DNA from: Amycolatopsis azurea DSM 43854
GTDB taxonomy: Bacteria > Actinomycetota > Actinomycetes > Mycobacteriales > Pseudonocardiaceae
NCBI RefSeq assembly: GCF_001995215.1
Contig: NZ_MUXN01000005.1
Coordinates: 1 to 64,000, forward strand
Reading direction: 5' to 3'
Length of the DNA: 64,000 bases
The notes under the pieces are model-generated. The model was not told the origin of the DNA and ran no database searches. It saw nothing but the letters and a program-made list of their open reading frames with translations. Below are positions 34,531-56,804 of the stretch, piece by piece. Position 1 is the first letter of the stretch. The number at the start of each line of letters is the position of its first letter. A program made the translations under genes and the position numbers.

Positions 34531-35985
34531 TCAGGTGACCTGGACGGTGACCGGGGCGGCCGTGGCGGGGGTCGCGGCGACCGAAGCGGCGGCCGCGCCC
34601 AGCCGTCGCACGGCCTCGAACAGCCTGTCGGCCGGGAGCGAGTACGGCAGGCGCAGCCAGCGCTCCAGTCCACCGTGGACACCGAACCGCGAACCCGGCG
34701 CCACCTGCACTCCGTGTCCCGCCGCCGCGACGGCCAGGCGTGTGCTCATCGGCTCCGGCAGGCGGCACCACAGCGAAAGCCCGCCGGGCGGCACGGTGAA
34801 CGTCCACTCCGGGCAGTACCAGTTCAGCGCCCCGGTCAGCGCGTCGCGCAGGGCCAGCGTCTCCTCTCGACGGTGCGCCAGCGCGGCCCCGCCGTCGTCC
34901 AGCAGTTCGGCGAGGACGAGTTGCTCGAAGACCGGCGATCCCAGGTCGACGGCGAACCGGGCCGCGATCAGCCTGCCGACGACGTCCTCGGAAGCGCGGA
35001 TCCAGCCGAGCCGCAGTCCGGCCCAATGCGACTTCGACGCCGAACCGATCGTGATGCCGAGGTCGCCCGCGAACGCGCCCAGCGGCGGCGGCCCGTCGGC
35101 CGGATCGCCCTCGAGGTCCAGTTCGACCAGGGTCTCGTCGATGATCGCGGGCGTCCGCGCGCGGCTCAGCGCGGCCGCGAGCCGCTCCCGGTCGGCCGCG
35201 TCCATGCGCAGGCCCGTCGGGTTCTGGAAGTCCGCGACGAAGTACGCGAGCCTCGGCGCGGACTGCCGCAGCGCGGCCTCGATTCCGACGACGTCCCAGC
35301 CGGTGGCCGGGTCGAGCGGCACCGGCACCGGAATGGCGTGTGCGGCGCCGATGGCTTCGAGCGCGTTCGGATACGTCGGCTGCTCGACCAGCACGCGGTC
35401 GCCGGGGCCGGCCAGCATGCGCAGGACCTGTACGAACGCGTGGTGGGCGCCGTTGGTGATCATCACCTGGTCGGCGTTGGTCGGCAGGCCGCGTTCGGTG
35501 TAGCGGCGAGCGATCCGCTCACGCAGGATCCGCAGGCCGCGCACGTGATAGCCGTTCTCGCCGAGGTGGTCCACCAGCGCCTTGCGCGCGGCGTCCACGG
35601 CCGGGACCAGACCGGGGATCGCGGGCGGGCAGGCCTGGGCGAGGTCGATGAGGTCCTCCCCGGACGGCAGGATCGTCTCCCGGCCCCTGCCCCCGGGAGA
35701 CGCGATCCAGGACCCGGCCCCGCGACGGCTGGCGACCAGCCCGTCGGCCCGCAGTTTGTCCAGCGCGGCGCCGATCAGCGTGCGGCTGACTTCGAGGGCG
35801 TCGGCCAGCTCGCGTTCGGCGGGGAGTTTCGTGCCGAGCGGGAGCCTTCCGTCGAGGACGAGCAGCTCGACCGCCGCCGCGAGATCCGCGGCACCGTGTC
35901 GAGAACCACTCTGCCGCCAACTCCCCAGCAAAATGGCCAATTTCGAGCCTGAAACGCGTCCAGTCAGCGGGATCAGCGGTTCCAT
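34531..35985 (-). CDS. MocR-type PLP-dependent regulator
   Basis: This 484-residue GntR/aminotransferase fusion starts at ATG 35985. The N-terminal winged helix (about 30-100) contains LPLGTKLPAERELADALEVSRTLIGAALDKLRADGLV. The fold-type I aminotransferase domain carries the PLP lysine in GSASKSHWAGLRLGW, with ITNGAHHAF and DFQNPTGLRM. MocR proteins sense amino-acid or vitamin-B6-type ligands through PLP. It is divergent from a YczE-family gene and the inverted repeat at 35988-36009 touches its start. The arrangement parallels YczR-YczE pairs. Confidence 0.9.
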   Translation of the reverse strand: MEPLIPLTGRVSGSKLAILLGSWRQSGSRHGAADLAAAVELLVLDGRLPLGTKLPAERELADALEVSRTLIGAALDKLRADGLVASRRGAGSWIASPGGRGRETILPSGEDLIDLAQACPPAIPGLVPAVDAARKALVDHLGENGYHVRGLRILRERIARRYTERGLPTNADQVMITNGAHHAFVQVLRMLAGPGDRVLVEQPTYPNALEAIGAAHAIPVPVPLDPATGWDVVGIEAALRQSAPRLAYFVADFQNPTGLRMDAADRERLAAALSRARTPAIIDETLVELDLEGDPADGPPPLGAFAGDLGITIGSASKSHWAGLRLGWIRASEDVVGRLIAARFAVDLGSPVFEQLVLAELLDDGGAALAHRREETLALRDALTGALNWYCPEWTFTVPPGGLSLWCRLPEPMSTRLAVAAAGHGVQVAPGSRFGVHGGLERWLRLPYSLPADRLFEAVRRLGAAAASVAATPATAAPVTVQVT

Positions 35986-35987
35986 AA

Positions 35988-36009
35988 GACCAATTGTTCC
36001 AGATTGGTC
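35988..36009. promoter_or_regulatory. Inverted repeat between MocR and YczE genes
   Basis: GACCAAT (35988-35994) and ATTGGTC (36003-36009) are separated by 8 bp in the 61-bp divergent promoter. It is the best candidate MocR operator controlling both genes. Confidence 0.6.
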
Positions 36010-36046
36010 ATGGTCAAGGTAGCCACTTACCCCTGATGGTGCATCC

Positions 36047-36673
36047 GTGGCACTCAAACTCGACCTCAAACCCGTCGGCATCTCCCACGACACCACCCGC
36101 CGTTCGATCCAGCTCGTCGGCGGGCTCGCCCTCTACGGCGGCAGCATGGCCATGCTGACCAGGTCGGGGCTCGGCCTCGACCCGTGGGACGTGCTGCACG
36201 AGGGCCTGATGAAGCTCACCGGCCTGTCGTTCGGCACGGTCACCGCGATCGCTTCGGTCCTGGTGCTCCTGCTGTGGATCCCCCTGCGGCAGCGGCCCGG
36301 GATCGGCACGCTCGCCAACATCGTGGTCATCTCGCTGACCGTCGACCTGGTCCGGCTGTTCCTGCCCGAGCAGGACGTCCTCGGCTGGCAGATCCTCAAC
36401 CTGGTCGCCGGTGTCGTGCTCAACGGCCTCGCCGCCGCGATCTACGTCGGGGCGCGGCTCGGCCCGGGCCCCCGCGACGGGCTGATGACCGGTTTCGCGG
36501 CCCGGACGGGCAAGTCGATCCGCCTCGTCCGGACCCTCATCGAGATCACCGTCCTGACCGCCGGCTGGCTGCTGGGCGGCACCGTCGGTGTCGGCACGGT
36601 CCTCTACGCGCTGGCCATCGGACCGCTGACGCAGGCCTTCCTGCCGTACGTCGTGTGGCGTGAGCGGGCCTGA
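36047..36673 (+). CDS. YczE/YyaS/YitT-family membrane protein
   Basis: This 208-residue protein (GTG 36047) has five membrane helices and the family hallmarks LARSGLGLDPWDVLHEGL-like (here LTRSGLGLDPWDVLHEGL) and LGPGPRDGLMTGFAARTG. It ends in FLPYVVWRER. YczE-type proteins are predicted transporters or membrane factors whose substrate is not established. They recur next to MocR regulators, as here, which hints at transport of the MocR ligand. Confidence 0.9.
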   Translation: MALKLDLKPVGISHDTTRRSIQLVGGLALYGGSMAMLTRSGLGLDPWDVLHEGLMKLTGLSFGTVTAIASVLVLLLWIPLRQRPGIGTLANIVVISLTVDLVRLFLPEQDVLGWQILNLVAGVVLNGLAAAIYVGARLGPGPRDGLMTGFAARTGKSIRLVRTLIEITVLTAGWLLGGTVGVGTVLYALAIGPLTQAFLPYVVWRERA

Positions 36674-36716: not shown

Positions 36717-36944
36717 GTGGAGGATTTGGGACGGTGAACGTCCTGGATCCTCCACGCTCGGTCTCGTTGATGAGGGATTCGCGACGCTGAACGCCCTAAA
36801 TCCTTCATCAACGGGGGAGGATTCCGGCCGTTGAACGTCCGGAATCCTCCCCCGTGACGTCGTCTGCCACCGGTCGTGACCGGCGCGATCTTGATCAACG
36901 GAGGATCGGGGACGTGGAGTGTCCCGGATCCTCCGTTGATCAAG
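36717..36944 (+). repeat. Array of four related hairpins (family 4)
   Basis: Hairpins at 36717-36755, 36766-36812, 36811-36855 and 36890-36944 have arms of 17-25 bp sharing the core GGAGGAT ... GGACG. The loops are GTGAA, CTGAA, TTGAA and TGGAG. They fill the 340-bp spacer between the converging YczE and Clp_N genes. Arm mismatches range from one (third) to five (second). This is not a CRISPR: units are inverted and there are no unique spacers. Confidence 0.88.
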
Positions 36945-37013
36945 CTCCGAAGCTGGGCGACACCGAGCGACGATGCGGGAGTGACGAACCCCCACCATCC
37001 CGCGGTCCGACGG

Positions 37014-37538
37014 TCAGCTGGCCTCGCGTTGCTCCACCAGGCGCCGTACGGCCAGGTAGTCGATCCCCCGCTGCGCGAGGACGTCGGCGGCCACCCCGGG
37101 AAGCGCCGTCAGCGCGAGCAGGAGGTGCTCGCCTTCGATGCGCTTGCTGCCGACTTCGATGGCTTCGCGAAGGCTCTTCTCCAGTACCTTCTTCGCGTCC
37201 TGCGTGAAGGGCCGGTGCCCGCGCCCGCCGCGCTGTCCCCCGGTCAGCGCGCCGGGCCCGTGCGTCTGCTCGACCCGCTCGACGATGTGCTCGACGTCGA
37301 TGCCGAATCCGCTCAGGGCTTCGACGTCGGCGTCGCTCATCCCGCCCCGGCGGCGGACGCGGCGGAGGTCGTCGGCCAGTTCGTCCGCCGGGCAGCCCAG
37401 GGTGGTGAGCACGCCGGCGTGCCGGGCGAGGGACGTCAGCAGGTGCAGCGGGTCGACGTTCGCGGACCCCTCGTCCGAAGCGACCCGCTGCGCCCCCATG
37501 ACGACCTCGCGGAGTTCGGTGGTGAACCGTTCGAACAT
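37014..37538 (-). CDS. Stand-alone Clp_N (ClpC N-domain-like) protein
   Basis: This 174-residue protein contains two four-helix Clp_N repeats: MFERFTTELREVVMGAQRVASDEGSANVDPLHLLTSLA (about 1-60), then FTQDAKKVLEKSLREAIEVGSKRIEGEHLLLALTALPG (about 110-150). There is no AAA+ ATPase. In ClpC1 this domain recruits substrates and adaptors and is the target of cyclomarin-type peptides. The start overlaps the stop of the upstream HTH gene by 1 bp, so the two form a split version of a ClpC2-like regulator. Confidence 0.88.
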   Translation of the reverse strand: MFERFTTELREVVMGAQRVASDEGSANVDPLHLLTSLARHAGVLTTLGCPADELADDLRRVRRRGGMSDADVEALSGFGIDVEHIVERVEQTHGPGALTGGQRGGRGHRPFTQDAKKVLEKSLREAIEVGSKRIEGEHLLLALTALPGVAADVLAQRGIDYLAVRRLVEQREAS

Positions 37539-37747
37539 CAGTGCCTCCCGTACTTCTTGTGCACCGCTTGCCTGCTGACCCCCAGCTCGGCCGCGATCTC
37601 CTGCCAGGACCAGCCGTGCACCCGCGCGCTGCGGACCTGCACGGCCTCGAGTTGTTCCAACAGCCGGCGCAAGGCGGCGACGGCGCGCAATCCCACCCGG
37701 GGATCGCGGTCGCCGGCTCGCGCGGCCAGATCTGTCGCTTCGGTCAT
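37538..37747 (-). CDS. Small HTH protein, partner of the Clp_N gene
   Basis: This 69-residue protein ends in a helix-turn-helix (HGWSWQEIAAELGVSRQAVHKKYGRH). The HTH closely resembles the one at the N-terminus of the fused ClpC2-like protein at 56037-56756 (ASWTEIGKNMGVSKQAAQKRF). It is joined to the Clp_N gene by a 1-bp overlap. Two GTCAAC-N4-GTTGAC palindromes lie 4-46 bp upstream, so autoregulation is likely. Confidence 0.82.
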   Translation of the reverse strand: MTEATDLAARAGDRDPRVGLRAVAALRRLLEQLEAVQVRSARVHGWSWQEIAAELGVSRQAVHKKYGRH

Positions 37748-37750
37748 GAC

Positions 37751-37793
37751 GTCAACCTACGTTGACATCTCGCCCGCGTCAACCTCAGTTGAC
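37751..37793. promoter_or_regulatory. Paired operators GTCAAC-N4-GTTGAC
   Basis: Two 16-bp palindromes at 37751-37766 and 37778-37793, 27 bp centre to centre, occupy the whole 61-bp divergent gap between the HTH gene and the PP2C-like gene. The same half-sites recur at 56760-56804 beside the fused ClpC2-like gene. Confidence 0.75.
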
Positions 37794-37808
37794 AGTTAGG
37801 GTCTGGCC

Positions 37809-38582
37809 ATGGTCGAAATCGCAGTGGCGGAAAGGGACGGAGTAGGCGCGGACGGAGCATCGCGCCCGACCGAAGACCACGTCGCCGTACTCGGCAACGC
37901 CGTGGTGGTGCTCGACGGGGCGACCGCGCCGCGACCGGATCTGCCGTCCGGCGGCTGGTACGCGAGCCTGCTCGTGCGCAGCCTGTCGCGGGCGCTGACC
38001 GCGGAACCCGAGGCGGATCTCGCGGTCCTGCTGGCCGGGTCGATCGCCGACGTCGCGGGTCGTGAAGGTCTCGAACCGGGACGATCACCGTCGAGCACGG
38101 TCGCGATCGCGCGCTGGACAGACGACACCGTCGACGCGCTGGTGCTCGCCGACAGTCCCATCATCGCCTTCGGCCCCTCCGGCGCGGACCCGCTTACGGA
38201 CGACAGGCTGGTTTCGCTCCGTGACAGCGGGCAGCTTCGCACAGGGGCCGACGTCCGCGCGAAACGCAACGCGCCGGACGGCTTCTGGGTCGCCGAAGCG
38301 GAACCGAAGGCGGCCGACGAGGCCGTCCGCCGCAGCTGGCCGCGTTCGGAGGTCGAAGCCCTGCTGCTGGCGACGGACGGGGTCGCGATCGGGGTCGACG
38401 AGTACGGCCTGTTCGGCTGGCCGGAGGTGCTCGCCCTCAGCCGCGAGCGTGGTCCGGACGCGGTCCTCGACGCGGTGCGCACGGCGGAGAAACAGGACCC
38501 GGACGGCGCCCGCTGGCCCCGCGCGAAAAGGCACGATGACCAGCTACTGGTACTGGTCGAGCTAGGGGTAGCCCCAGGGTAG
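37809..38582 (+). CDS. PP2C-like serine/threonine phosphatase domain protein
   Basis: This 257-residue protein resembles PPM/PP2C phosphatases: TEDHVAVLGNAVVVLDGATAP (metal-binding Asp plus Gly), SSTVAIARWTDDTVDALVLADSPIIAF and LLLATDGVAIGVDEYGLF with the DG motif. The usual first metal motif is shortened, so activity is uncertain. The divergent HTH gene and the paired operators 16 bp upstream suggest it is regulated by the HTH/Clp_N pair. Confidence 0.78.
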   Translation: MVEIAVAERDGVGADGASRPTEDHVAVLGNAVVVLDGATAPRPDLPSGGWYASLLVRSLSRALTAEPEADLAVLLAGSIADVAGREGLEPGRSPSSTVAIARWTDDTVDALVLADSPIIAFGPSGADPLTDDRLVSLRDSGQLRTGADVRAKRNAPDGFWVAEAEPKAADEAVRRSWPRSEVEALLLATDGVAIGVDEYGLFGWPEVLALSRERGPDAVLDAVRTAEKQDPDGARWPRAKRHDDQLLVLVELGVAPG

Positions 38583-55963: not shown

Positions 55964-56040
55964 CTGAAGGGGACTTTCCCCACATCCCATGAGACGAAAG
56001 CGTCCTTCACCGCGTCGCATGCGGTGAAGGGCCCCTTCAG
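55964..56040. repeat. Tripartite hairpin repeat (family 3, copy 4)
   Basis: The leading unit is 55966-55985, unit 2 is 55996-56015 (diverged) and the inverted unit is 56019-56038. Its right end (CTTCAG, read CTGAAG on the other strand) supplies the TGA stop of the ClpC2-like gene at 56037-56039. Confidence 0.85.
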
Positions 56041-56756
56041 CCCTCCCTGGTCGCTACGATCTCCTCTAGAGCCCCCAAGATCGCCGCCTCGGTCTTCTCT
56101 TTCGTAAGACCGAGCTCGATGAGCAAACCACTCTCGAGTTCGAACAGGGCCAGCAGGATGTGCTCGGTGCCGATGTAGTTGTGCCCGAGCCGCAGCGACT
56201 CCCGCATCGTCAGCTCGAGCGCCTTCTTGGCCTGCGCCCCGAAGGCCATCTTCGCCGCTTCCGCCGGTTCGTCGGCGGGTTCCGGTAGTGCCGCCGTCGC
56301 GGCCTCGCGGACGGCTTCGAGGGTCACCTTCTGCGCCACGATCGCCCCGGCGGCGAGCGCCGCGGGTTCGGCGAGCAGGCCGAGGACCAGGTGCACGGGC
56401 TCGATCTGCGGACTCTTCGCCGTCACGGCCGCGTCCCGCGCAGCGACGACGACGTGCCGCGCGCGATCGGTGTAGCGGCTGAACACCTTCACCAGGTCTT
56501 CGAGCGAAGAGCCGCTGGATTCGACGAAGCGTTTCTGGGCGGCCTGCTTGGACACACCCATGTTCTTGCCGATTTCGGTCCAGGAGGCGCCGGAACGCCG
56601 CGCCTGGTCGACGAAGTGGCCGATCAGATGGTCGGCCACTTCGCCGAGGTGCTCGCCGAGGAAGACCGCGTCGGACAGCTGGCCGAGCACGTCGCCGTCG
56701 GGATGCTGTTGCTTGATGTGGGAGATGAGGTCGTCGAGCCGGACTGGATTCGCCAT
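56037..56756 (-). CDS. ClpC2-like regulator: HTH fused to Clp_N domain
   Basis: The 239-residue protein starts at ATG 56756. The N-terminal ~85 residues hold a helix-turn-helix (ASWTEIGKNMGVSKQAAQKRF). The rest is a double Clp_N domain (about 95-239: FSRYTDRARHVVVAARDAA ... AKKALELTMRESLRLGHNYIGTEHILLALFE) without any AAA+ ATPase. This is the architecture of mycobacterial ClpC2 (Rv2667). I recall that ClpC2 binds ClpC1-targeting antibiotics and regulates its own gene. Paired GTCAAC-N5-GTTGAC operators lie directly upstream. A split paralogue is at 37014-37747. Confidence 0.88.
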   Translation of the reverse strand: MANPVRLDDLISHIKQQHPDGDVLGQLSDAVFLGEHLGEVADHLIGHFVDQARRSGASWTEIGKNMGVSKQAAQKRFVESSGSSLEDLVKVFSRYTDRARHVVVAARDAAVTAKSPQIEPVHLVLGLLAEPAALAAGAIVAQKVTLEAVREAATAALPEPADEPAEAAKMAFGAQAKKALELTMRESLRLGHNYIGTEHILLALFELESGLLIELGLTKEKTEAAILGALEEIVATREG

Positions 56757-56759
56757 ACC

Positions 56760-56804
56760 GTCAACTTTAGGTTGACGATCTTCAATCGTCAACCACGGGT
56801 TGAC
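56760..56804. promoter_or_regulatory. Paired operators GTCAAC-N5-GTTGAC
   Basis: Two 17-bp palindromes at 56760-56776 and 56788-56804, 28 bp centre to centre, lie 4-48 bp upstream of the ClpC2-like gene. The second overlaps the end of the flavoprotein gene. The half-sites match those at 37751-37793. Confidence 0.75.

Follow-up and report, generated by a model that had tools for sequence, protein, structure and literature searches.

Sequence comparison reveals, in the window analysed here, the whole 64,000-nucleotide stretch of Amycolatopsis azurea DNA, what is probably a new and widespread autorepressor of the ClpC2 kind, encoded by two neighbouring genes, one for an HTH protein and one for a stand-alone Clp_N protein. 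The pair appears as a separate, old branch that coexists with a fused ClpC2, and the operators of one system differ from those of the other by a single base of spacing (N4 versus N5). For the fused protein the model of ClpC2 autoregulation and cyclomarin sensing is already known (PMC10030653). In the literature that we searched, mostly non-subscription papers, no description of the two-gene locus was found. The case is built from comparison of sequences: the pair itself, its operators, the promoter embedded in them, their deep conservation, the private character of the sites and the N5 paralogue.

Table 1. Features of the two-gene locus and of the fused paralogue (positions in the window)
Feature	Position	Strand	Basis
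Stand-alone Clp_N protein (174 aa), downstream gene of the pair	37014..37538	-	Pfam PF02861 and PDB matches
HTH protein, 69 aa, first gene of the pair	37538..37747	-	HTH families, profile match, model
Proximal operator O1, GTCAACCTACGTTGAC	37751..37766		perfect GTCAAC-N4-GTTGAC; spacer NTAN in 80/80 loci
Putative HTH/Clp_N promoter -10, TAGGTT, within O1	37754..37759	-	6 nt to ATG, leaderless; comparison
Putative HTH/Clp_N promoter -35, TTGACG, within O2	37777..37782	-	TTGACN-17/18 nt-TANNNT in 78/78 two-site loci
Distal operator O2, GTCAACCTCAGTTGAC	37778..37793		perfect GTCAAC-N4-GTTGAC; 27 bp from O1
Probable PP2C promoter -10, TAGGGT, just beyond O2	37797..37802	+	predicted; 6 nt before ATG
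PP2C-type phosphatase, predicted, 257 aa, divergent	37809..38582	+	PF13672; acidic residues; PstP-like fold
Fused ClpC2 paralogue, 239 aa	56037..56756	-	PDB ClpC2 C-domain E=1.6e-40, N-domain 8ADA E=1.5e-25
Two GTCAAC-N5-GTTGAC operators of the fused ClpC2	56760-56776, 56788-56804		same window

The gene pair, its operators and the embedded promoter

An ORF check upholds the coordinates of the 69-residue HTH gene and the 174-residue Clp_N gene and their 1 bp overlap, the HTH stop and the Clp_N start having one base in common (TGATG). The Clp_N protein matches PF02861 at 40.9 bits (cut-off 20.7) and, in the PDB, the ClpC1 N-domain (E=1.4e-14) and the ClpC2 C-domain (E=3e-8). The HTH protein falls in HTH-type Pfam families (E about 1e-6) and its structure model has a pLDDT of 87; searched with Foldseek, the model gave weak generic HTH matches only and no ClpC2 match. 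Over its 70 codons the HTH gene has 0-7 synonymous differences from close congeners and 21 from one more distant, and the Clp_N gene has 28-35 over 174 codons. Constraint at the DNA level is a possible explanation of the low synonymous change in the HTH gene.

Two perfect palindromes are indeed present between the pair and the PP2C gene, as the first-pass annotation had reported. Its statement that the gap consists almost entirely of palindromes went too far: they fill only 32 of 61 bp, and the remainder comprises promoter parts. Across 80 named loci from Amycolatopsis, Streptomyces and Embleya the spacer is N4 in 159/159 sites; exactly two sites occur in 77 of the 80, and in all 77 they are 27 or 28 bp apart. 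The sites are also private to the locus. O1 and O2 are the sole exact matches to GTCAAC-N4-GTTGAC in the 9.2-Mb genome, and a scan of ten genomes with GTCAAY-N4-RTTGAC gave 24 sites, 20 of them at the doubled pair locus, against 0 for the reversed control. As far as exact sites are concerned, a large regulon under N4 sites was ruled out by this ten-genome scan.

In the minus-strand reading, TTGACG comes from the right half of O2 and is followed after 17 nt by TAGGTT in O1 and after a further 6 nt by the ATG of the HTH gene. A strict consensus promoter scan of the region gave no match, so the promoter assignment rests on comparison across loci. In each of the 78 loci with both sites, 17 or 18 nt lie between -35 and -10; the -10 lies 6 nt from the ATG in 69 of the 80 named loci, and TA occupies spacer positions 2-3 in 80/80 proximal sites and 1/78 distal ones. 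Since the -10 would lie in O1 and the -35 in O2 of a leaderless promoter, autorepression by an HTH dimer can be argued; it is the operator position alone that suggests repression rather than activation.

Distribution and conservation

The first-pass annotation had made conservation of the gene order and the palindromes in relatives a check on its reading, and both proved to be conserved well beyond the Pseudonocardiales. HTH/Clp_N pairs with doubled N4 sites occur in Amycolatopsis, Streptomyces, Embleya and other Actinomycetes. Among the best 30 HTH loci in a 395-genome sample of the class, all 30 carry one or more N4 sites and have Clp_N as the next gene downstream. In the named loci Clp_N follows the HTH gene in 79 of 80 (the exception, L106, has just 326 bases beyond the HTH gene), and in 78 of these 79 the end of the HTH gene and the beginning of Clp_N overlap by 1 or 4 nt. 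Remoter loci, same-order members included, mostly keep the N4 sites, with half-sites that have drifted.

The HTH protein is 100% identical to several named Amycolatopsis records and to all sampled congeners. It is 75-100% conserved within the family, whereas Clp_N is about 40-57% conserved outside the genus. Within the family the pair is mostly at one fixed locus. No HTH match was found in plasmid and phage collections, and on that ground the pair as a mobile element was ruled out. Elsewhere, genome G033 carries an HTH relative (L285) with three N4 sites and Clp_N not following. What recurs generally is the pair together with its doubled operator, the HTH/Clp_N/PP2C trio being a feature of one family.

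Relationship to fused ClpC2

Mycobacterial ClpC2 (Rv2667; Taylor et al., 2023) is a fused HTH-Clp_N protein that represses its own promoter and is derepressed by cyclomarin (PMC10030653). Its sites, CGTCAAC-n5-GTTGACG, are often doubled and lie over the -35/-10 of a leaderless promoter (PMC10030653). The kinship to ClpC2 drawn in the first-pass annotation finds support in the homologous HTH, the identical half-sites and the retained ligand phenylalanines. The HTH protein is homologous to the dimerising N-domain of ClpC2: against the HTH of the fused ClpC2, hhalign gives a probability of 96% and E=2.6e-9 over 41 columns, and D46/R57 align by eye with ClpC2 E31/R42, both at least 90% conserved. 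As in ClpC2, the doubled operator spans -35/-10 with a leaderless start. The spacer here is N4, and HTH and Clp_N are separate ORFs, here and in relatives, rather than one polypeptide.

The description 'split ClpC2' is nevertheless misleading. A fused ClpC2, absent from the first-pass annotation, lies 19 kb away from the pair and, together with its operators, occupies 56037-56804. At fused ClpC2 loci elsewhere the spacing is N5 in 32/32 sites, and likewise in further fused loci that were compared. In a quick tree the fused ClpC2 Clp_N domains form one clade (support 100), with the two-gene proteins outside it. Coexistence and tree separation rule out a recently split ClpC2, and therefore point to the pair as a separate, old two-gene branch.

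The part that reads DNA

For DNA binding by ClpC2, Taylor et al. put forward two arginines of the Clp_N domain, R185 and R189 (PMC10030653). Their crystal structure of the ClpC2 N-domain, 8ADA, ends at residue 72, just short of the recognition helix. Position 189 is arginine in 20/20 fused proteins versus 5/130 two-gene Clp_N proteins, being absent from the other 125; R185 is kept in 112 of the 130, but occurs in ClpC1 too. Because the HTH protein of the two-gene branch is a separate, highly conserved chain, and because R189 is mostly absent from that branch, we infer that HTH, not Clp_N, reads DNA in both branches. HTH helix residue 64 (K or Q) tracks the inner base of the operator half-site: with K there is no G in 610 positions, and with Q there is G in 28 of 62. 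This correlation, which involves about three changes on the tree, is suggestive but not significant.

The adjoining phosphatase gene

The PP2C-like protein matches PP2C_2 (PF13672) at 24.3 bits (cut-off 24.0), and its model (pLDDT 91) resembles PP2Cs, PstP among them, with E values of about 1e-11. Residues E22, D23, D36, G37, D190, D243 and D244 are invariant in 18 homologues. The predicted fold and the acidic metal residues are consistent with phosphatase activity.

The operators belong to the HTH gene: sites are nearly always absent without HTH and are kept without PP2C. PP2C genes without the cassette were found in 25 genomes; 24 of these have no site, and in 23 of those yczE lies 20-189 bp before PP2C. 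Conversely, the pair without PP2C in ten genomes keeps two sites in 10/10. That the sites track HTH, not PP2C, supports the earlier suggestion that the operators are the likely target of the HTH protein. HTH and Clp_N genes with N4 sites accompany PP2C at 24 of the best 30 family loci for that gene, and both genes are missing at the other 6. The notion that PP2C belongs to the system everywhere was ruled out, pairs outside the family having no PP2C alongside. Of the trio that the first-pass annotation named, the pair, its order and the palindromes are widely kept, and the full trio is limited to one family.

It may be that the regulation of PP2C is incidental, the cassette lying between yczE and PP2C with its operators beside PP2C by chance. 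The yczE-PP2C order is conserved in relatives, and the distance between the two genes, 20-189 bp without the cassette and about 800-1190 bp with it, is what such a placement would produce, as is the want of an adjoining PP2C in pairs outside the family. The idea of a phosphatase switch is weakened because many relatives have PP2C right after yczE with no pair or operators. Chance adjacency, however, sits less easily with a divergent PP2C kept beside HTH in 58 of 68 family HTH loci, with the -10-like TANNNT motifs that recur upstream of PP2C a few bases beyond O2 in many related loci, and with locus L241 of genome G033, where a cassette-less PP2C keeps one N4 site and the HTH relative L285 is on another contig. 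For the PP2C part of the model only, we give incidental regulation a sizeable minority chance. Control of PP2C by the pair, limited to this family and to loci where the genes are adjacent, is plausible from the comparisons, but it may be a by-product of where the cassette lies.

Two further elements lie near the cassette. Upstream, a GntR/aminotransferase-type regulator gene diverges from the yczE-like gene (34531-36673), and an imperfect hairpin element of 35 nt occurs four times between yczE and Clp_N (36717-36947).

A proposed mechanism

In the two-gene Clp_N proteins the phenylalanines that contact cyclomarin in ClpC2 are largely kept (F96 in 127/130, F172 in 122/130), as is the glutamate of the second GTEH motif (123/130); that of the first is present in 73/130. 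These residues fit a ligand groove like that of ClpC1, and by analogy Clp_N would be the ligand-sensing partner of the HTH protein. A conserved extra segment, RRRGG...GIDV...HG.GAL, is not found in ClpC1 or fused ClpC2, and because of this branch-specific segment the ligand may differ from theirs.

From these observations we infer DNA binding, repression, an HTH-Clp_N complex, a ligand and control of PP2C, and combine them in a model of a two-gene ClpC2-type autorepressor. An HTH dimer would bind each palindrome and, at both sites, would cover the -35/-10 of its own leaderless promoter and shut it off, probably covering the PP2C promoter too and keeping PP2C off. Clp_N, translationally coupled, would dock on the HTH dimer as the sensory part. 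When its groove is filled by a ligand otherwise bound for the ClpC1 N-domain, candidates being cyclic peptide antibiotics, unfolded proteins and tagged substrates, DNA binding would be lost. Derepression would then lead to overproduction of HTH and Clp_N, the latter serving as a decoy that shields ClpC1. We consider this model, as a whole, to be somewhat more likely than not. Its more ambitious extension, a bipartite sensor insulated by one-base spacing, with the ligand signal passing across the HTH-Clp_N interface, coupling to a Ser/Thr phosphatase in the Pseudonocardiaceae and HTH as the DNA reader in both branches, is put forward tentatively and may well not hold in full.

The HTH protein might instead be a simple autorepressor without a partner, some other signal acting on it and Clp_N being an output (ClpC1 decoy, holdase or adaptor). 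HTH is far more conserved than Clp_N and may not need a specific Clp_N surface, and L285 has its three N4 sites with no Clp_N after it. Yet the 69-residue protein has no visible ligand domain, Clp_N comes after HTH in 79 of the 80 named loci and the Clp_N part is the published sensor in the fused paralogue (PMC10030653), so that we think this reading unlikely. A toxin-antitoxin-like module, with HTH as a RelI-related antitoxin-type regulator and Clp_N as an effector disturbing ClpC1, is very improbable: among PDB sequences HTH matches RelI (9sdc) best (E=0.0013), RelI-type antitoxins are derived from ClpC2 by the RelI authors (PMC13284704) and the genes are small, coupled and apparently autoregulated, but the neighbour of HTH is Clp_N with no adjacent RelS-like toxin gene, Clp_N keeps the ligand phenylalanines of the ClpC N-domain, and the pair, mostly at one fixed locus in the family, has no HTH match in the plasmid and phage collections.

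Significance

In the proposed two-gene autorepressor, DNA binding and sensing fall to different chains, so that a mechanism not settled for ClpC2 could be dissected one part at a time. The presence of N4 and N5 operators in one genome amounts to a clean natural experiment on the avoidance of cross-talk between paralogous repressors. Drugs target ClpC1, and ClpC2 is known to defend against those that bind it. Another widespread Clp_N regulator, having an operator of its own, would add a route by which actinomycetes sense and buffer ClpC1-binding compounds.

Comparison with known systems

The predicted phosphatase resembles PstP-type PP2Cs in its fold and invariant acidic metal residues and differs in belonging to a separate subfamily, at about 16% identity. 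RelI (Rv2664) is, like our HTH protein, a related stand-alone HTH of similar size; it differs in that its partner is the RNase RelS and that its authors did not find inverted repeats upstream (PMC13284704). Like our Clp_N protein, M. smegmatis ClpC3 (MSMEG_3761) is a small Clp protein; it is reported to bind cyclomarin and ecumicin and to be stress-induced (PMC10864484, PMC10454040). If ClpC3 is the Clp_N of a two-gene locus, part of the two-gene branch has already been named.

The fused ClpC2 of the window shares with the pair its half-sites, doubled operators and homologous HTH, and differs in its N5 spacing, single chain and lack of a PP2C. Mycobacterial ClpC2 likewise combines HTH and Clp_N with doubled GTCAAC/GTTGAC palindromes, a leaderless promoter overlapped by them and the ligand phenylalanines. 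The pair, in contrast, has two chains, N4 in place of N5, R189 in only 5 of 130 proteins, an extra Clp_N segment, a place outside the fused clade and a PP2C neighbour.
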